Below are positions 50,967 through 64,000 of a stretch of DNA of 64,000 bases, piece after piece (the first letter of the stretch is position 1; the number at the start of each line of letters is the position of its first letter). Made by a program: the position numbers and the translations under genes. The stretch spans positions 1 through 64,000 of the forward strand of contig NZ_FMZV01000001.1 in assembly GCF_900101475.1 (NCBI RefSeq), written 5' to 3'. This DNA is from Ruegeria marina (GTDB lineage Bacteria > Pseudomonadota > Alphaproteobacteria > Rhodobacterales > Rhodobacteraceae). Below the pieces are notes generated by a model. The model was not told the DNA's origin and searched no databases. It saw only the letters and a list, made by a program, of their open reading frames with translations.

Positions 50967-52157
50967 TCAGGAACGCAACAGCCCTTCCGCATGCCGGGCC
51001 AATACGGATTCCTCGTCGGTCGGGATCATCAGCGTTGTCACACGCGCCTGCGCGGCAGACAGTTGCGTTGCCCCCTTCCGGTTTGCACCTTCGTCCAGGA
51101 CCACGCCGAGCCAACCGAGGTCCGAGCAGATCCGCTTGCGGATCGCGGGCGCGTGTTCGCCGATGCCGCCGGTGAATACGAGCCCGTCGAGCCCGCCAAG
51201 CGCTGCGGCCAGGGATCCGATCTCGCGTTGGCAGCGGTAGACGAAGAAGTCGACGGCCCGGGCGGCATCCTTGCTGTCGCTGGCCAGGAGGTCCGGCATT
51301 TCACCGCTGATACCCGACAGGCCGAGAAGGCCCGAGCGTTCATAGAGCATGTCGCGCAGGTCCGCCGGGGACATGCCTCTTTCTTCAATCAGATAGAGAA
51401 TGATGCCGGGGTCGAGCGCTCCGGGGCGACGGCCCATCGGCAGCCCGTCGAGCGCGGTCATGCCCATAGTCGTGGCGACGGAGGTTCCGCCCTTGAGCGC
51501 GCACATGCTCACCCCATGGCCGAGATGCGCAACGATGACCCGACCCCTTGCAAGCGCGGGCCGGGTCCCGGCAAGAGCCGCGGCCACGTGTTCATAGGAC
51601 AGCCCGTGAAAACCGTATCTGACCACACCTTCCTCCGACAGGTGCCTGGGCAGCGCGAAGATTCGGTCGTTGTGCGGCAAGCTGCGGTGAAAGGCGGTGT
51701 CGAAACAGGCGATCTGGGGGACACCCGGAAACCTCTCCGAAAGGTCGCGGATGGCGTCCAGGTTGTGCGGCTGATGACTTGGCGCGAGCGGCGAGAGCGC
51801 GTCGAGCCGGGAAAGCACCGTACTGTCGACCTTGACCGGGTCGGCGTAGCGCGCCCCGCCATGGACAACCCGGTGCGAGATCGCCGCGATGGCTTTTTCG
51901 TCCACTTCCTCGACCAGTCGCTGCACCATGGTAGCGCGGGCCGCGCCTTGTGCCGTCGCCTTGTCTTCGGGCGGGTCGAGTTCAAATTCCTCGGTCTCGT
52001 CCGCGCAGAGATCACGGCGTTCCAAGATCATCCTTGCCGGAAGTCCGCGCAGGCTCAGGCGGATCCTGGGCCGCGGTCCGTCGTCGGTCCGGTCGAACAC
52101 CGCACAGCGCAGGCTCGATGACCCGGCGTTGAGAGTGACGAGGGTATTCGCCGTCAT
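50967..52157 (-). CDS. ackA: Acetate kinase
   Basis: The 396-residue protein has the ASKHA-fold marks TLNAGSSSLRCAVF (start), SHRVVHGG, CFDTAFHRSLP and VAHLGHGVSMCALKGG. Near the end are FTGGIGEHAPAIRKRIC and a final segment with Glu. It converts acetyl phosphate and ADP to acetate and ATP, or the reverse. It overlaps the pta gene by ATGA. Together they give substrate-level ATP from acetyl-CoA, useful when respiration fails, or acetate activation. Confidence 0.93.
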   Translation of the reverse strand: MTANTLVTLNAGSSSLRCAVFDRTDDGPRPRIRLSLRGLPARMILERRDLCADETEEFELDPPEDKATAQGAARATMVQRLVEEVDEKAIAAISHRVVHGGARYADPVKVDSTVLSRLDALSPLAPSHQPHNLDAIRDLSERFPGVPQIACFDTAFHRSLPHNDRIFALPRHLSEEGVVRYGFHGLSYEHVAAALAGTRPALARGRVIVAHLGHGVSMCALKGGTSVATTMGMTALDGLPMGRRPGALDPGIILYLIEERGMSPADLRDMLYERSGLLGLSGISGEMPDLLASDSKDAARAVDFFVYRCQREIGSLAAALGGLDGLVFTGGIGEHAPAIRKRICSDLGWLGVVLDEGANRKGATQLSAAQARVTTLMIPTDEESVLARHAEGLLRS

Positions 52158-53566
52158 GGAATGTCACCGCCGTGGCCATTGCCGGCCGCCATGATTGCGG
52201 CCAGAGCCGCCGAGGCGCGTCGTTCGCGCGCGGTGTCGGCCCTGCTGGTCAGGGCAATCGGCACCCTGGCGCCAAGCGCGATGCCCGCCGCCTCGGCCCC
52301 GGCCAGATAGTCGAGATCCTTGGCGAGGATGTTCGCGGCCTCGATGTCGGGCGCGACGAGGATGTCGGCCCGGCCCGCGACGGGTGACGCGATGCCCTTG
52401 ATCCGTGCCGCCTGTTCGGACACTGCATTGTCCATCGCGAGTGGCCCATCGACATCGGCGCCCGTGATCTCGCCCCGGTCCGCCATCTTGCAGATCGCCG
52501 CGGCGGCGATGGTGGAGGGGATGGTCTCGGTCACGGTTTCAACCGCCGACAGCATCGCGACCCGCGGCCGCTCGATGCCAAGCGCATGTGCAAGGTCGAT
52601 CGCGTTCTGCACGATATCGCGCAACGTGGAGAGGTCGGGCGCGATGTTCACGGCGGCATCCGCAACGAACAGAAGCCTCAGATAGCCTGGAACATCCTCG
52701 ACGAAGACGTGGCTGAGTTTGCGTCCGGTTCGCAGTTCCCGTCGATCCAGCACGGCATGCAGCAGGGCGTCGGTGTGGATCTTGCCCTTCATGATCGCGC
52801 CGCACTCACCCTTCGCGGCCAGGCTGGCCGCGTTCCTCGCGGCGGCTTCGGCATTCACGCAATCGATTGTCTCCACGCCTGACATGTCACGTCTGGCGTC
52901 CCTAGCGGCCTTGCGCAGCGCCGCCTCGGGGGCGATCAGAACGGGTGTAATCAAGCCGGCCTCGGTTGCGTCCAGCGCCCCTGACAGCGAAGGGGCGTCG
53001 ATCGGATTGACGACCGCGGTGCGGACCGGTCCGGCCCTGCGGCCAAGCTCTTCGATCTGCTCCAGCCTGTCGGGCGGTGTATCTGTTTCAAGGGCCACCG
53101 GCCTGCCGAACGGGCGAGAGATCGGTGCGTCCGGCGCGACCGCCTCGATCCTGCCGGACAGGATCGGGGTGCCGTCCGCGCGAGAGCATCGTATATCGAG
53201 GGTTGCCGTTCGGCTGTCCGCGTCCAGCTTGGCAATGGTTGCCTCGGCCACGGCCACATCCCCCTTGCGCAGAGGGTTCCCGATGTCGACGGAAAGTCTG
53301 CGCAGACGTGTTCCGGGCCCCGGCAGGCGCGTGGCGACAAGCCCCACCAGCAGGCTGACCGCCATGCCGCCCTGCGACAGCACCGCCCGGAAACCGGGAT
53401 CGGCGGCCAATTCGAGATCCACCGAATCCTCCAGCACATCGCCAAGGAAAGTGACAAAGGAACGGATGTCGGTATGGGCGATCAGGCGCCGAACGCTTTC
53501 GGTGTCGCCGACCCGGAGATCCGGGAATGGACGGTTGCGCACGAGGCGGGTCATCGCAGGCTCCAT
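52154..53566 (-). CDS. pta: Phosphotransacetylase with N-terminal MaoC-like domain
   Basis: The start at 53566 (GGGGGAGG just upstream) gives 470 residues. Residues 1-150 form a MaoC/hot-dog domain (FLGDVLEDSVDLELAADPGF, LRRLSVDIGNPLRKGDVAVA). Residues 160-470 form a phosphate acetyl/butyryltransferase (DATEAGLITPVLIAPEAALR, GECGAIMKGKIHTDALLHAV, DAAVNIAPDLSTLRDIVQNA, GRADILVAPDIEAANILAKD). This fused form occurs with acetate kinase and PHB genes in proteobacteria. It should make acetyl phosphate, while the hydratase-like part might bind hydroxyacyl-CoA. Confidence 0.88.
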   Translation of the reverse strand: MEPAMTRLVRNRPFPDLRVGDTESVRRLIAHTDIRSFVTFLGDVLEDSVDLELAADPGFRAVLSQGGMAVSLLVGLVATRLPGPGTRLRRLSVDIGNPLRKGDVAVAEATIAKLDADSRTATLDIRCSRADGTPILSGRIEAVAPDAPISRPFGRPVALETDTPPDRLEQIEELGRRAGPVRTAVVNPIDAPSLSGALDATEAGLITPVLIAPEAALRKAARDARRDMSGVETIDCVNAEAAARNAASLAAKGECGAIMKGKIHTDALLHAVLDRRELRTGRKLSHVFVEDVPGYLRLLFVADAAVNIAPDLSTLRDIVQNAIDLAHALGIERPRVAMLSAVETVTETIPSTIAAAAICKMADRGEITGADVDGPLAMDNAVSEQAARIKGIASPVAGRADILVAPDIEAANILAKDLDYLAGAEAAGIALGARVPIALTSRADTARERRASAALAAIMAAGNGHGGDIP

Positions 53567-53597
53567 GTTCCTCCCCCGGCGCGCGCTGGAAATCTGG

Positions 53598-55484
53598 TTA
53601 ACGTTGGAAGACATACGAACCGGGCGCATTCTCGATCGCCTGATAAGGGGCCGTATCTGTCCCGAGCCCCGGAGGCGGCACCTCTTTCCCCGACCGCTCG
53701 CTTAGCCAGGCGACAAGTTCGGGCCACCAGGACCCGTCGCGGCGGTCTGCTGCCGCCAGCCAGTCTTCGGGAGAGGCATAGGGCTCGTCCTCGCCCGTCG
53801 TCCGGATGCGGAACTCGCGGCCTTCGTGCCCCGGTTCGCTGACGATCCCGGCATTGTGCCCGCCGCTGGTCAGCAGAAAAGTGATCGGCGTGTCCGCCAG
53901 CAGATGCAGCTTGTAGACCGATTGCCAGGGCGCGACATGGTCCGACGTGGTCGAGACACAGAAGATCGGCACGTCGATCTCACCTATCGCGATGGGTTTC
54001 CCGCCCAGCCTGTACTTGCCTTCGGCCAATTCGTTGCCAAGGAAGATCTGGCGCAGGTATTCGCTGTGCATCCTGTAGGGCATCCGTGTCGCGTCGGCAT
54101 TCCAGGCCATCAGGTCGAACATCTCCTGCCGGCGACCCATCAGGTATTCGTGGATGTAGCGCGACCAGATCAGGTCGGCAGAGCGCAGAAGCTGAAACGC
54201 CCCCGCCATCTGCTTGGTCTCGAGATAGCCCTGGTCCCACATCATGTTTTCCAGGAAAGCGACCTCGCTTTCGCTCACGAAAAGCTGCAATTCGCCGGGC
54301 TCCTCGAAATCGGTCTGCGTGGCGAACAGAGCCAGCGTTGCCAGCCGGTCGTCGCCGTCGCGCGCCATCTGTGCGGCTTTCGCCGCCATCAAGGTTCCGC
54401 CGAGGCAGTAGCCGACACCGTGCATCCCGGTATCGGGCACGATCGCGGTAACGGCATCCATCGCCTCGGCCACGGCGCCGAAATAGTCGTTCATCCCCTT
54501 GTCGCGATCCTCGGCCGTCGGGTTCCGCCACGAGACCATGAAGACGGTGAATCCCTGGTCCACCAGATAGCGGGCCAGCGAATTGTGCGGGCTGAGATCG
54601 AGGATGTAATACTTCATGATCCAGGCCGGCACGATCAGGATCGGTTCGGGCTTCACCTTCCCGGTCGTCGGCGCATACTGGATGAGTTCCAGCAGGCGGT
54701 TCCGGAACACCACCTTGCCCGGCGTCGTGGCCACGTCGCGCCCCGGCAGGTAGTCTTCGGTCCCGATCGGCAGCTTGCCGGATACCGCCCGTTCCCAGTC
54801 TTCGAGAAAGTTCTGATAGCCGCGCAGCAGGTTCGCGCCGCCTTCGCGCAGGGTCGTCTGCGCAACTTCGGGGTTCGTCGCTATGAAATTCGACGGCGAG
54901 ATCATGTCGAGCATCTGCCGGCTGAGAAACGACACGACCTGCTCATCGCGCGCGCTGACCCCATCGATGTCGCAGGCGGCGTTGTACCACCATTGCTGGC
55001 TCAGCAGGAAAGCCTGGTAGATCAGGTTGTAGGGCCATGTCTGCCAGGCCTCGTGCTCGAAACGGTGATCGTGGGGCAGAGGCTTGATGCAGGGCGGCGT
55101 TTCAGGGTCGCGGGCAAGCTGCCCTGCGTAGATGCCAAGCCGCATGGCCTTGCGGGCCGCCTTTTCCATCAGTTGCACCTGCTTGCCGGGCGCCCCCATG
55201 AGATGCACCCACCAGGTGAAGAAGGTCGATGACAACCCATAGGGCGAGACGCCAAGCGTGAAGCGCGCGAGATGCGCATTGGCGGCCCTGTCGAGACTCT
55301 TGGTGCTGTAACGATCCAGCGCTTCGAGCGGCGAGGTGTAGACGATTTCGGGAGGCTCGGCATGGAGACCGCTACGTTCTTCCTCCTGGGAGCCCGAGGG
55401 TTCCTTGCTGTCCGGGCTCTGCCTGGAGGTTTCCCCGGCTGCCTTTGTCTTTAGATCTTCGGTCACTGCTTTGGTGTCGGGCAT
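53598..55484 (-). CDS. phaC: Class I poly(3-hydroxyalkanoate) synthase
   Basis: The 628-residue protein has the lipase-like box G-Y-C360-L-G-G in GVGYCLGGTLMA, with Asp515 (TTSDHVAPW) and His543 (SGGHNAGI) completing the Cys-Asp-His triad. The His-Asp spacing equals that of Ralstonia PhaC. FMVSWRNPTAEDRDKGMNDY is the usual family block. It polymerises 3-hydroxybutyryl-CoA from the PhaB reaction. The N-terminal 45 residues are charged and disordered-looking. It lies 44 bp after phaB. Confidence 0.95.
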   Translation of the reverse strand: MPDTKAVTEDLKTKAAGETSRQSPDSKEPSGSQEEERSGLHAEPPEIVYTSPLEALDRYSTKSLDRAANAHLARFTLGVSPYGLSSTFFTWWVHLMGAPGKQVQLMEKAARKAMRLGIYAGQLARDPETPPCIKPLPHDHRFEHEAWQTWPYNLIYQAFLLSQQWWYNAACDIDGVSARDEQVVSFLSRQMLDMISPSNFIATNPEVAQTTLREGGANLLRGYQNFLEDWERAVSGKLPIGTEDYLPGRDVATTPGKVVFRNRLLELIQYAPTTGKVKPEPILIVPAWIMKYYILDLSPHNSLARYLVDQGFTVFMVSWRNPTAEDRDKGMNDYFGAVAEAMDAVTAIVPDTGMHGVGYCLGGTLMAAKAAQMARDGDDRLATLALFATQTDFEEPGELQLFVSESEVAFLENMMWDQGYLETKQMAGAFQLLRSADLIWSRYIHEYLMGRRQEMFDLMAWNADATRMPYRMHSEYLRQIFLGNELAEGKYRLGGKPIAIGEIDVPIFCVSTTSDHVAPWQSVYKLHLLADTPITFLLTSGGHNAGIVSEPGHEGREFRIRTTGEDEPYASPEDWLAAADRRDGSWWPELVAWLSERSGKEVPPPGLGTDTAPYQAIENAPGSYVFQR

Positions 55485-55528
55485 GATGCTCCTCGTTGCG
55501 TTCGCGGTCTTTGCTGATGGCGGGGTGT

Positions 55529-56260
55529 CTAGCCCATAAGCAGGCCGCCATTGACCGGCAGGGTCGCGCCGGTGATGAACCCTGCATCCTGCGAGGCGAG
55601 AAACCGCACGCAGCGGCCGATCTCATCAGGCTCGGCCAGGCGCGATAGCGGCACCTTTGCAAGGATCTGGTCCAGGATGTCGTCGGGCAGCGCCGCGACC
55701 ATGGCCGTATCGGCATAGCCGGGCGCTATAGCATTGACGGTAACGCCCTTGCCGGCGCTCTCGTGCGCCAGGGCACGGGTGAAGCCCTCGACGCCCGCCT
55801 TGGCGGCGCAGTAATTCGTCTGGCCCGCCTGGCCCTTCGCAGCGTTGACCGACGAGATGTTGATGATCCGTCCGAACCCGCGCTGGCGCATGCCGCCGAT
55901 GACCTGTCGCGTGACGTTGAACATCGAACCGAGATCGACACGCAGGACAGCGTCCCAATCCTTGCGGTCCATCTTGTGAAACATGCCATCGCGATTGACG
56001 CCGGCATTGTTGACGAGAATGTCGATCGGGCCGATCGCCTCTTCCACGTCAGCAACTCCCCTGGCACAGGCGTCGAAGTCGCCGACATCCCATTCGAAGA
56101 CCGGTATCCCGGTCTCGCGGCCGAACGCCTCGGCCTGCGCGCCGCAGCCGAGATGCCCGACGGCCACCACCACATCGGCTTCGGCGAGCGCACGTGCGGC
56201 CGCTGCACCGAGGCCCTGCACACCTCCGGTGACGAGGGCGGTTCGCTGTTTTGCTGCCAT
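55529..56260 (-). CDS. phaB: Acetoacetyl-CoA reductase
   Basis: The ATG at 56260 follows GGGAGC and gives 243 residues. It is a classical short-chain dehydrogenase: TGGVQGLGAAAARALAEADV, then LVNNAGVNRDGMFHKM, the catalytic Ser (INISSVN) and Y-x3-K (NYCAAKAG). Its position before phaC supports NADPH-dependent reduction of acetoacetyl-CoA to (R)-3-hydroxybutyryl-CoA. The thiolase that should make its substrate is reduced to a remnant just upstream. Confidence 0.9.
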   Translation of the reverse strand: MAAKQRTALVTGGVQGLGAAAARALAEADVVVAVGHLGCGAQAEAFGRETGIPVFEWDVGDFDACARGVADVEEAIGPIDILVNNAGVNRDGMFHKMDRKDWDAVLRVDLGSMFNVTRQVIGGMRQRGFGRIINISSVNAAKGQAGQTNYCAAKAGVEGFTRALAHESAGKGVTVNAIAPGYADTAMVAALPDDILDQILAKVPLSRLAEPDEIGRCVRFLASQDAGFITGATLPVNGGLLMG

Positions 56261-56298
56261 AAGCTGCTCCCTTTCTTGGGTTTGCTCGATTGCCGGGG

Positions 56299-56490
56299 TC
56301 ACATGTCGCGCTCAAGTATCAAGGCGATGTCCCGGCCGCCGCCGATGCAGAACGACACCAGGCCACGACCAGTCCCGCCGCGCTTGACCGAGGCACCTGA
56401 AGCGGGGGCTGGCCTGGAGGCGAGCATCCCGCCGGAACGTCCCGTGGGCATCCGCCGGGCATGGCAGAGCCTCACCTTGGTCTGCGACAT
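56299..56490 (-). pseudogene. Acetyl-CoA acetyltransferase (PhaA) remnant, middle deleted
   Basis: The ATG at 56490, with AAGGAGA upstream, opens with SQTKVRLCHARRMPTGRSGG and MLASR, the N-terminus of a thiolase. About 30 residues on, the frame reads ASGASV and then GRGLVSFCIGGGRDIALILE, which are thiolase C-terminal blocks (GHPxGASGA region and CIGGGxG). Some 330 internal residues, including the active-site Cys89 region and GHP His, are gone. Only 63 residues remain. Its place before phaB fits an original phaA-phaB-phaC order. Confidence 0.75.
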
Positions 56491-60589: not shown

Positions 60590-63106
60590 ATGGTTGACAT
60601 CAATGCATTGAGTTCCGATGACGTTGTCGGAACCTTCCCTACCTCGATAACGCAAAAGCGCGCCTGGTTCATGGATCAGATCCATCCAGGCAATCGCGGG
60701 TTGAATATCGCGGTCCGATGGGAACTGCGAGGACCCGTGAGCAGCGATGCTGTCGAGGCCGCATTCCAGAAGATCGTGGATCGTCACGAGGTATTCCGCA
60801 CCCGGTTCGTGGAACGCGATGGGGAACCGCTTCAGGAGGTGATGCGGCGGGTCGAGTTCAAGCTGAATCGGCTTGATATCCGGAACCTGCCCGAGGCAGC
60901 GCGTGACGAGAAGCTGCGGCAGATCGCGCGCGAACATGCAGAAGAACCGTTTGACCTGAGTGAGGCCGGCCTGTTGCGGGTTGCGATGGTGCGGATCGAG
61001 ACGCAACGCGCCGCGCTGCTGATCTCGGTGCACAACAGCGTTTTCGACGGCTATTCCATCGGGGTGCTGGGCCACGAGTTGGGGTCGTTTTTGGCCGCGA
61101 AGGAAGAAGGCAAGCCCGCCGATCTGCCCGAACTGCAGCTGCAATATGGCGATTTCGCGATGTGGCAGGCCGATTACGAGGCGAGCGGCGCCTTCGCCGA
61201 GGATGAGGAATATTGGCGGCAGACCCTTGAGGGGATGCGCTATTTCGAGCTTCCCCCGGATCGGCCGCGCCGGGCCAAGGAGCCGGAAAGCCGCAGCTTT
61301 GCGGCCGATCTGCCCGCGGATTTCGAAACCCGCCTCGCCGAGACGGCGAAGGCGCTGGAAACCTCGGTCTTTGCGCTGGGGACGGCCGCCTTCGGCATTG
61401 CCCTTGAACGGATTTCTTCGCGCCGGGATGTCAGTTTCGCGATTCAGGTCGCCGGCCGGAACGAGGTGGATCTGGAGCCGCTGATCGGGATCTTCACCAA
61501 TCCGATCGTGCTGCGCTTTGACGTGGACCCGGATGCGTCTCTGTCCGATCATGCCAAGCGGACCCGTGACGTGGTCAACGGTGCGCTGGCGCATCAGACG
61601 CTACCGTTTGACCGGCTTGTCCAGGTTCTGAACCCGCCTCGGGACCCGCTGCGCATTCCGCTGGTTTCGATCATGTTCAACCTGCAAAGGGCCTTTCTGA
61701 AAGAGCGCACCTACGGTTCGGTCGAACTGGTGTCGGTCCAGTCGCATTCGCCGGGTACGCTCTATGATCTGAACGTGAACATCGTTGGCCGGAATGCGGG
61801 CTGGCGAATGGTTATCGACTATAACGCCGATCTCTTCGATGAGGTGACGATCGAGCGGCTGTCGAAGCTGGTCGTCGAGGTGTTTGACGGGCTGATGCAC
61901 CGGGTCGAGACGCGGATCCACGAGATTGACAGCGGAGTTCCGGATGTACGGGCCGAGCTTGTCGGGGAGTTGGTGCCCCCCGAGATCCGCGCCAGGCCGG
62001 CAGCCGAACCGGCGGAGCGGCAGTCCGAAGTCGTGTCGCGGTTGCGGGAGATCTGGTCGGAGGTTCTGGCCTTGCCGGCCGAAAAGGTTACGGGCAACTT
62101 CTTCGATCTCGGAGGGTATTCGGTTCTGGCGTTGCGGATGCTGTCAAAGGTCGGCGAATGCTTTGGGGTGCGCCCAAGCCTTAATGCCTTTCTGGCCGAG
62201 CCGACAGTCGAGGGCCTTGCGGCTCTGCTGGAAAAAGCGCAGCCGCTGGCCGCTCCGCAAAAGGCCCTGGAGTCGCAACCGGGCGCGATCTGGGATCTGT
62301 TCGAGTTGCGGAAGTCTTCGACCGGGGCGCCGGTGCTGATCACGGTGAATCAGCCGTTCATGTATCAGGCCCTGGCGCGTCAGATGACATCGGATTGCGC
62401 GGTGGCAAGCCTGAACGTGCCGGGGATGGCCCAGTTGAACACGCTGGAACAGGCGGGCTTTGACAAGGCGGTCGACGAGGCGCTTTCGCCTGTTCTCGAA
62501 CGCTATTCCGGGCGGCCCTTGATGCTGTGCGGGCTCTGCGTGGATGGTCGGGTGGCGCTTCGGCTTGCACAAAGGCTGAAGGACAAGGGGCAGACCGTTT
62601 CATGCGTAGCGATGATCGATACCTGGGCGCCCGGCGCGATCAAGGCGTTTTCTGCCTTCGAGCGGGGGCTTGACCGGTGGCGGATCCGGCTGAGGCGGCT
62701 GCGCTACTATCTGGGCCTGCGGCGGCAGGGCGAGATCGGCTGGGGCGATGTCCTGCGGCAGAATGATTTCGCGGCCAAGCTGCTTTCCATGTTCAGCCGG
62801 TCGCCGGCAAAGGATGAAACCGCAATTCTGGTCGATGCGACGGTCGACCGCCTGGTTGAACAGACCAAGGCCTATACATTCGCGCACTATGACGGCGAGG
62901 TCGCGCTTTTCGTGACCCGCTCGCAGGGGATGGTCCCGCGCGATGGGGTCCTCGGCTGGTCTGACCTGCTGTTGCCGGATGTGGCGGTCTTCCCCGTCAA
63001 CGGCTGGCACGGGGATGCCTTGATGCGGTCGGGTTTCGGGCGGATCATCGGGGTCCTTGATGTCAAGGCTGCAAGGTTGAACGCGGTCCGAACTTCGGAT
63101 GAGTGA
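60590..63106 (+). CDS. NRPS-like protein: condensation, carrier and thioesterase domains
   Basis: The 838-residue protein has a condensation domain at residues 14-440. Its active-site motif reads H148-N-x3-D153-G instead of HHxxxDG, so the catalytic second His is replaced by Asn. A peptidyl-carrier domain at 475-545 has the phosphopantetheine Ser511 in FFDLGGYSVLAL. A thioesterase domain at 575-830 has a nucleophile motif G-L-C650-V-D-G, with Cys for Ser, and a His in NGWHGDAL. There is no adenylation domain, so the acyl unit must be loaded in trans. The start has only a weak AAGGTAAG site. The next gene overlaps by 8 bp. Confidence 0.88.
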   Translation: MVDINALSSDDVVGTFPTSITQKRAWFMDQIHPGNRGLNIAVRWELRGPVSSDAVEAAFQKIVDRHEVFRTRFVERDGEPLQEVMRRVEFKLNRLDIRNLPEAARDEKLRQIAREHAEEPFDLSEAGLLRVAMVRIETQRAALLISVHNSVFDGYSIGVLGHELGSFLAAKEEGKPADLPELQLQYGDFAMWQADYEASGAFAEDEEYWRQTLEGMRYFELPPDRPRRAKEPESRSFAADLPADFETRLAETAKALETSVFALGTAAFGIALERISSRRDVSFAIQVAGRNEVDLEPLIGIFTNPIVLRFDVDPDASLSDHAKRTRDVVNGALAHQTLPFDRLVQVLNPPRDPLRIPLVSIMFNLQRAFLKERTYGSVELVSVQSHSPGTLYDLNVNIVGRNAGWRMVIDYNADLFDEVTIERLSKLVVEVFDGLMHRVETRIHEIDSGVPDVRAELVGELVPPEIRARPAAEPAERQSEVVSRLREIWSEVLALPAEKVTGNFFDLGGYSVLALRMLSKVGECFGVRPSLNAFLAEPTVEGLAALLEKAQPLAAPQKALESQPGAIWDLFELRKSSTGAPVLITVNQPFMYQALARQMTSDCAVASLNVPGMAQLNTLEQAGFDKAVDEALSPVLERYSGRPLMLCGLCVDGRVALRLAQRLKDKGQTVSCVAMIDTWAPGAIKAFSAFERGLDRWRIRLRRLRYYLGLRRQGEIGWGDVLRQNDFAAKLLSMFSRSPAKDETAILVDATVDRLVEQTKAYTFAHYDGEVALFVTRSQGMVPRDGVLGWSDLLLPDVAVFPVNGWHGDALMRSGFGRIIGVLDVKAARLNAVRTSDE

Positions 63107-64000
63107 TCCCCTACATCCGCCCTTGCGGATTGTGCTGGTTGTCGATGCGCTGCACGATCTGACTGATGCCGAGGCGCTGTTGATCGACCGGTTGAGCGCG
63201 GACCCGAAGGTCGTGATTTGTGGGCGGATCGCCGGTACGGCTGGCCAGCGGGCTGACCCGCTGCCCATCAGTTTGCGTGGCTTTCTGGGTCTTGAACGGT
63301 TTGTCGTCGGCCGCCGGATTCTTCCCTATGACACCCGGAAGGCTGTGCGCTTGATGGCGGGCTTGCCCGAGGTCGCGCCAGATGCCGGGTCAGGGGCCTT
63401 CGACCTGGCGCTGGTGCTCGGTGCGAAGCGACTGGCGGCCGAGCAGCTTGCACTGGCCCGGTTCGGGGAATGGATGCTGTCCTATGGCGGGGCTGCTGAT
63501 CCAGGCTGGATCTGGACTGTGCCGGACTTGCGCGCGAAACCCCGCGTCGAGGTCGAAATCACGCAGCGGCACAGCGCGTCTCCCGCGCCGGTCACGATCC
63601 GGCGGACAAGCTACAACCCCAAGCCCGGTGCGGTTCTGACCGGAGCTTTCGTTGCGGAAAAATCGGTTCTGTTCCTGCATCATGCCTTGAGCGAACTTGC
63701 CGACAGGCGTGCCGTTCCGCAGGGTTCCGGGACACCCCTGATCGCGCCGGCGCCACCGGCTCTCGGGGATGTACTGTCTTATGCAGGCGCCTTTGCCCGC
63801 ACTTCTTTCCGCAAGTTTTCCGAACGGATACGTGAGCGCCAAAACCGGGCGCGCCAGTTCTGGCGCGTTGCCCATGGCACAGGGTCCGTGACCGCGATCA
63901 ACCCGATGGAGGCGGCGGATCTGCCGGACCGCAGGCAGATCATGGCGGATCCTTTCCTTTTCGAACATCAGGGAGAGCTGTGGGTCTTTTACGAGGCGAT
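63099..64000 (+). CDS. Partial gene coupled to the NRPS-like gene; glucosyltransferase/GH43-like end
   Basis: The ATG at 63099 lies inside the end of the NRPS-like gene, and the frame is open to the window edge (300 residues). It begins LRIVLVVDALHDLTDAEALL, and contains LVLGAKRLAAEQLALARFGE and an LSYGGAADPGWIW block. Near the end comes MADPFLFEHQGELWVFYEA, a pattern found at the start of the five-bladed propeller region of GH43-like and glucosamine inositolphosphorylceramide transferase-like proteins. The earlier part could be a formyl- or methionyl-transferase-like domain. Probably a tailoring enzyme for an exported product; substrate unknown. Confidence 0.55.
   Translation, partial: MSDPLHPPLRIVLVVDALHDLTDAEALLIDRLSADPKVVICGRIAGTAGQRADPLPISLRGFLGLERFVVGRRILPYDTRKAVRLMAGLPEVAPDAGSGAFDLALVLGAKRLAAEQLALARFGEWMLSYGGAADPGWIWTVPDLRAKPRVEVEITQRHSASPAPVTIRRTSYNPKPGAVLTGAFVAEKSVLFLHHALSELADRRAVPQGSGTPLIAPAPPALGDVLSYAGAFARTSFRKFSERIRERQNRARQFWRVAHGTGSVTAINPMEAADLPDRRQIMADPFLFEHQGELWVFYEA

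Follow-up and report, generated by a model that had tools for sequence, protein, structure and literature searches.

In streptothricin biosynthesis, the C-PCP protein ORF18, whose condensation (C) domain carries an HQxxxDM motif, links a beta-lysine chain, held on a carrier, to an aminoglycoside, and replacement of its Gln by Ala lowers the activity (PMC11546977). The same account presents the role of the second His of the HHxxxDG motif as disputed between base, acid and positioning, and describes heterocyclization (Cy) domains, in which DxxxxD replaces HHxxxDG (PMC11546977). Cys thioesterases (TEs) at the end of an NRPS are described for ObiF1, SulM and AB3403 (PMC11298585). The C-PCP-TE protein analysed here resembles ORF18, as far as the published description of the latter goes, in being an A-less C-PCP protein with an amide residue in place of the second His and in the beta-amino acid predicted for its chain. 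Unlike ORF18, for which that description gives HQxxxDM and names no TE, it reads HNSVFDG with the DG kept, has a TE added and would be fed by a PKS-NRPS hybrid. By analogy with this published description, ORF18 is the nearest functional precedent, and the family of the protein is not classed as a member of the ORF18 group.

The protein is encoded near the end of the window, that is, the whole stretch of 64,000 nucleotides that was analysed (positions 1-64000 of contig 17, in a 4.99-Mb genome). Specifically, the open reading frame list gives a coding sequence at 60590-63106 on the plus strand, 838 amino acids from an ATG start, with three Pfam domains above cut-off. The C domain (residues 15-448, 60632-61933; PF00668, 295.4 bits against a curated cut-off of 30.6) was also located here by the genome search and contains the HNSVFDG motif at residues 148-154 (61031-61051), in which Asn149 (codon AAC, 61034-61036) stands for the second His. 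It is followed by a carrier (PCP) domain (residues 484-547, 62039-62230; PF00550, 46.4 bits) with Ser511 in the motif GGYS, and by a TE domain running from residue 591 to about 838 (62360-63103; PF00975, 34.8 bits against a cut-off of 26.4), of which the Pfam match covers residues 591-705 and the alpha/beta pattern of the model supports the whole. By alignment, the TE motif GLCVDG (residues 648-653, 62531-62548) holds the nucleophile Cys650, and Asp677 (62618-62620) and His807 (63008-63010), on the same strand, complete the expected triad. The Pfam search detected no AMP-binding (A) domain anywhere in the 838 residues, and in an NCBIfam search with the protein no model reached its cut-off. The domain order without an A domain, the HN in place of HH and the Cys nucleophile, all read from the sequence in the earlier note, are thus borne out by these matches and alignments.

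An AlphaFold2 model of the protein, built from 32 sequences (mean pLDDT 83.9, pTM 0.63), shows a C domain that resembles solved C domains (Foldseek match 8qnf, TMt 0.87), and the top Foldseek match of the whole model is AB3403 (4zxh). The order of C domain, carrier and TE is that of SrfA-C (2vsq) terminal modules, yet, compared with SrfA-C, the protein lacks an A domain and carries Asn in place of the second His and Cys in place of the nucleophilic Ser. In a profile search of the genome, Condensation matches occur only in this protein and in a neighbouring synthetase. Elsewhere in the window, on the minus strand at 50967-56302, genes for an acetate kinase, a phosphate acetyl/butyryl transferase with an N-terminal extension, a PhaC-type polyester synthase and an SDR stand in a row.

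A scan of genome contigs gave at least 586 confirmed stretches, of which the best 80 were kept; ten of these 80 are ordinary NRPS loci. The family loci among them, nine loci from other searches and the window were combined in an alignment of 80 rows. Among these best matches, position 149, the second motif position, is Gln in 57 rows, His in 14, Asn in 8 and Ser in 1, while the first His and the Asp of the motif are both kept in all 80 rows, so that the family motif mostly reads HQxxFDG with the DG preserved. The Cy-type DxxxxD form was not matched, the first motif residue being His in 80/80 rows. The eight Asn rows, comprising the window, Ruegeria and Sulfitobacter, form one clade (SH-aLRT 100), and all of them use the codon AAC. 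Gln is encoded by CAG or CAA and His by CAC or CAT, so a single base separates His from Gln and His from Asn. L008, the row with Ser, shares 28% identity with the window protein; it is a distant outlier and may not be an orthologue. Beside the Asn clade stand two metagenome-assembled HH-form loci (L048 and L089), in which the stretch covered holds no full-strength synthetase match.

Two trees built with position 149 left out place at least nine changes between His and non-His at this position, a count that is soft because the trees come from quick methods and include several long branches; eight independent pairs fall on branches that have support. Since HH is retained in 14 of the 80 rows, loss of the second His is not a requirement of the family.

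In the partner synthetase, by comparison, the C domain carries HH in 72/72 readable loci (74 examined, two not covered). Six non-His matches from an initial motif scan over the partner C domains were discarded, five being chance pattern matches and one the C-PCP-TE protein of locus L112. Ten ordinary NRPS loci gave HH in 32/32 motif matches, and a class-wide sample of 29 loci gave 23 HH matches in 22 loci and no match in seven, with two further matches (HP and HR) from loci where HH was matched as well; the pattern requires the first His, so motifs without it would be missed in these scans.

The variable position sits in a strongly conserved domain. Mean pairwise identity is 53.9% for the C domain, 44.4% for the PCP and 32.5% for the TE, which makes the C domain the best conserved part of the protein. 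Within the Asn clade, dN/dS of the C domain is 0.058, 0.061 and 0.067 in three Ruegeria pairs and 0.143 between the window and L042; in a fifth pair synonymous sites are saturated and give no value. By these ratios, the C domain of the Asn clade is under purifying selection. That the Asn arose from a sequencing or assembly error, or marks a decaying gene, is a reading to which we give next to no weight: some homologues do keep HH, but the AAC codon is identical in eight genomes, Gln fills the position in 57 rows, dN/dS is low and the frame stays open over 838 residues, which together refute a sequencing error behind the HN motif.

The earlier note had left two alternatives for the C domain, a binding or scaffold domain or one that works by a different mechanism on an acyl group loaded in trans. 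A scaffold would make no bonds; it would dock the synthetase and hand the chain over, either to the protein's own carrier or directly to Cys650, which would do the chemistry. The absence of the usual catalytic His from 66/80 rows and the invariance of the Cys among intact TEs speak for such a role. Yet among the three domains the C domain shows the highest conservation, with the first His and the Asp in every row, whereas the TE varies most, and its dN/dS is low, which makes a bond-free scaffold improbable in our estimate. Conservation and dN/dS favour a working domain over a dead scaffold, and the C domain is likely to be catalytically working.

Similar constancy is found at the carrier and at the TE nucleophile. 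The carrier Ser is conserved in 79/79 aligned rows, and the nucleophile is Cys in 78/78 rows with an intact TE and Ser in none of them. The earlier note had held that homologues with HHxxxDG and a Ser thioesterase would reduce the HN motif and the Cys to sequence errors; the HHxxxDG half of this pair does occur in the family, and the Ser thioesterase is absent from every intact TE. Judged from the alignment, the HN motif and the Cys nucleophile are family traits, not errors. The window TE shares its Cys nucleophile with ObiF1, SulM and AB3403, as these are described (PMC11298585). In the model, the strand that comes after the nucleophile strand 644-649 is 670-676, and D677 stands immediately behind it, so the Asp is at position I, as described for AB3403, and not at position II, as described for ObiF1 and SulM. 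Also unlike these three described enzymes, the window protein lacks an A domain, and the usual His is absent in 27/78 relatives.

In particular, the triad Asp is present in 77/78 intact rows and the C-terminal His, at the His807 site, in 51/78. All 27 TEs without the C-terminal His have a His two residues after the nucleophile and read CVHG, or CWHG in L112, and none of the 51 others does; L035, L037, L038 and L066 are among the switched rows. We record this apparent relocation of the TE His beside the nucleophile as an observation rather than a test, because it amounts to one change on the tree. The C-PCP-TE protein of Acuticoccus (L112:10001-12622) reads GGCWHG at the nucleophile and has Asn for the triad Asp. 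No trade-off between the C domain and the TE was seen, the triad His being the same within each of the eight independent pairs with different residues at position 149.

The gene following the C-PCP-TE gene encodes a GINT1_N domain protein of 519 amino acids on the plus strand (63099-64000 within the window, ending at contig position 64658; PF24793, 102 bits), which also resembles GH43 below cut-off. It starts at 63099, upstream of the C-PCP-TE stop codon at 63104-63106, an overlap of eight bases. An ATGA overlap at contig position 64655 offers a start for a third gene, which from a longer start gives a weak Glyco_hydro_cc match (18.5 bits, below the cut-off of 21). The coupled tailoring gene proposed in the earlier note therefore stands as regards the overlap; as regards a usual NRPS tailoring enzyme it does not, given the GINT1_N domain and the polysaccharide genes around it. 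The GINT1_N family is named for a plant-type sphingolipid glycosyltransferase, and is here bacterial and translationally coupled to an NRPS end module. Among the 76 family loci (window excluded), a GINT1-type gene lies directly downstream in 46 of the 49 that keep the triad His, lies at a distance in two and is lacking in one, and the 25 with the TE His switch have it in 0/25. This distribution, which reflects a single split on the tree, suggests that the TE and the GINT1-type protein act together.

The DNA beyond the window supplies the activating enzyme that the C-PCP-TE protein lacks. A synthetase of 3336 amino acids (contig 66318-76328, minus strand; L003:6319-16329, minus strand, in its own locus numbering) begins 2.3 kb past the window end and converges on the C-PCP-TE gene, and Pfam matches order it as A-PCP-KS-AT-ACP-class III aminotransferase-C-A-PCP; three carrier matches were reported, of which one was placed and the positions of the other two were inferred. 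That the cluster continues past the window, as the earlier note inferred, is confirmed; reading the following DNA for an adenylation gene, the check proposed there, reveals two A domains in this synthetase on the other strand. The proposed loading of an acyl chain in trans gains support from this neighbour; a cluster without any activating enzyme is ruled out. MycA-type hybrid synthetases, which make mycosubtilin and iturin, combine KS-AT-ACP with an in-line class III aminotransferase followed by a C domain. The neighbouring synthetase shows the same arrangement and differs from the MycA type in its starter, which the code of its first A domain (A1) suggests to be an amino acid, in the Gly that comes next and in its polysaccharide setting.

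With code positions placed by PheA numbering, the second A domain has a DILQ-type code in 76/77 aligned stretches, and DILQLGxIW presumably specifies glycine. The A1 code, DGWFFAGVF in the window's synthetase, is highly variable; with A1 changing between loci and the second A domain constantly glycine-type, it is as if the line swaps its starter. A fatty-acyl starter was considered and dropped, Asp being first in all 30 distinct A1 codes from 62 aligned stretches. From the domain order, the chain is predicted to consist of an amino acid, a malonyl unit bearing a beta amine, and glycine.

Beyond the synthetase lie genes for a flippase, a polysaccharide export protein, a Wzz/kinase protein, glycosyltransferases and a CocE-type hydrolase, and also for a phosphopantetheinyl transferase (PPTase), an initiating sugar transferase, more glycosyltransferases, an acyltransferase and a TIGR04325 methyltransferase. 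With flippase, export, Wzz/kinase and glycosyltransferase genes around it, the locus looks like a polysaccharide cluster that contains an assembly line. This company recurs: across the 76 family loci, the synthetase is present in 73 and a PPTase in 65, at least one polysaccharide marker in 60, at least two in 59 and none, in the stretch covered, in 16. Control stretches lack these markers (0/10 ordinary NRPS loci and 0/3 stretches of the window's first 57 kb); the markers were chosen from the family loci, the stretch lengths vary and the ordinary NRPS loci come from distant phyla. Counting against an amino-sugar acceptor, the window's own cluster yielded no enzyme for a free-amine sugar; a DegT aminotransferase occurs in 32/76 family loci. 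The same gene company is seen on annotated plasmids of Rhodobacter, Rhizobium, Loktanella and Jannaschia, the rhizobial copies being on large plasmids. The polysaccharide cluster with a C-PCP-TE gene is common to many marine and soil bacteria. In full-text searches of the open-licence PMC literature, none of the titles and abstract openings listed described it, which is weak evidence.

The steady polysaccharide neighbours bear on a further alternative, ordinary extension in trans, in which the glycine A domain of the line, or another, would load the carrier of the C-PCP-TE protein, one more peptide bond would be made, and the TE would free a small peptide, the polysaccharide genes being mere neighbours. 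The invariant carrier Ser, the nearly invariant glycine-type A domain and the full TE triad of the window protein all suit this reading; but polysaccharide genes accompany most of the family loci, and in the loci read neither the space between the two proteins nor their flanks hold a second A domain. We consider it rather unlikely, though less so than the scaffold.

We instead lean, with a little more than even confidence, towards a working A-less terminal module (C-PCP-TE) of a conserved PKS-NRPS line, whose residue at position 149 would position a substrate rather than deprotonate it. A link of this line to polysaccharide synthesis is, from the gene company, most likely. In the proposed mechanism, the synthetase would make the short chain predicted above and pass it to the C-PCP-TE protein; the C domain would couple the chain to an acceptor not activated in cis; and Cys650 would accept the chain and then release or transfer it. 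Asn, Gln or His at position 149 would orient the acceptor by hydrogen bonding, so that no general base would be needed there. Repeated swapping of His, Gln and Asn within a strongly conserved domain fits a hydrogen-bonding residue and would be odd for an obligatory base. On the other hand, the repeated exchange could mean that position 149 has become unimportant, with constraint relaxed at that residue. By analogy with ORF18 and its aminoglycoside, the acceptor may tentatively be taken as an amino-sugar amine of a polysaccharide repeat unit or its precursor. More speculative still is the combined proposal of an alphaproteobacterial PKS-NRPS family whose Gln/Asn C domain would attach an aminated, Gly-ended peptide-polyketide to an amino sugar in a Wzx/Wzy-type exopolysaccharide and so give a peptide-decorated polysaccharide, with position 149 orienting the acceptor and not acting as base.

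A single family with His, Gln and Asn at one site, and with a partner C domain that is always HH where readable, amounts to a set of naturally occurring mutants with which the role of the second His can be tested. Decoration of a polysaccharide by the line, if it occurs, would give assembly-line peptides a part in the surface sugars of marine bacteria and rhizobia.
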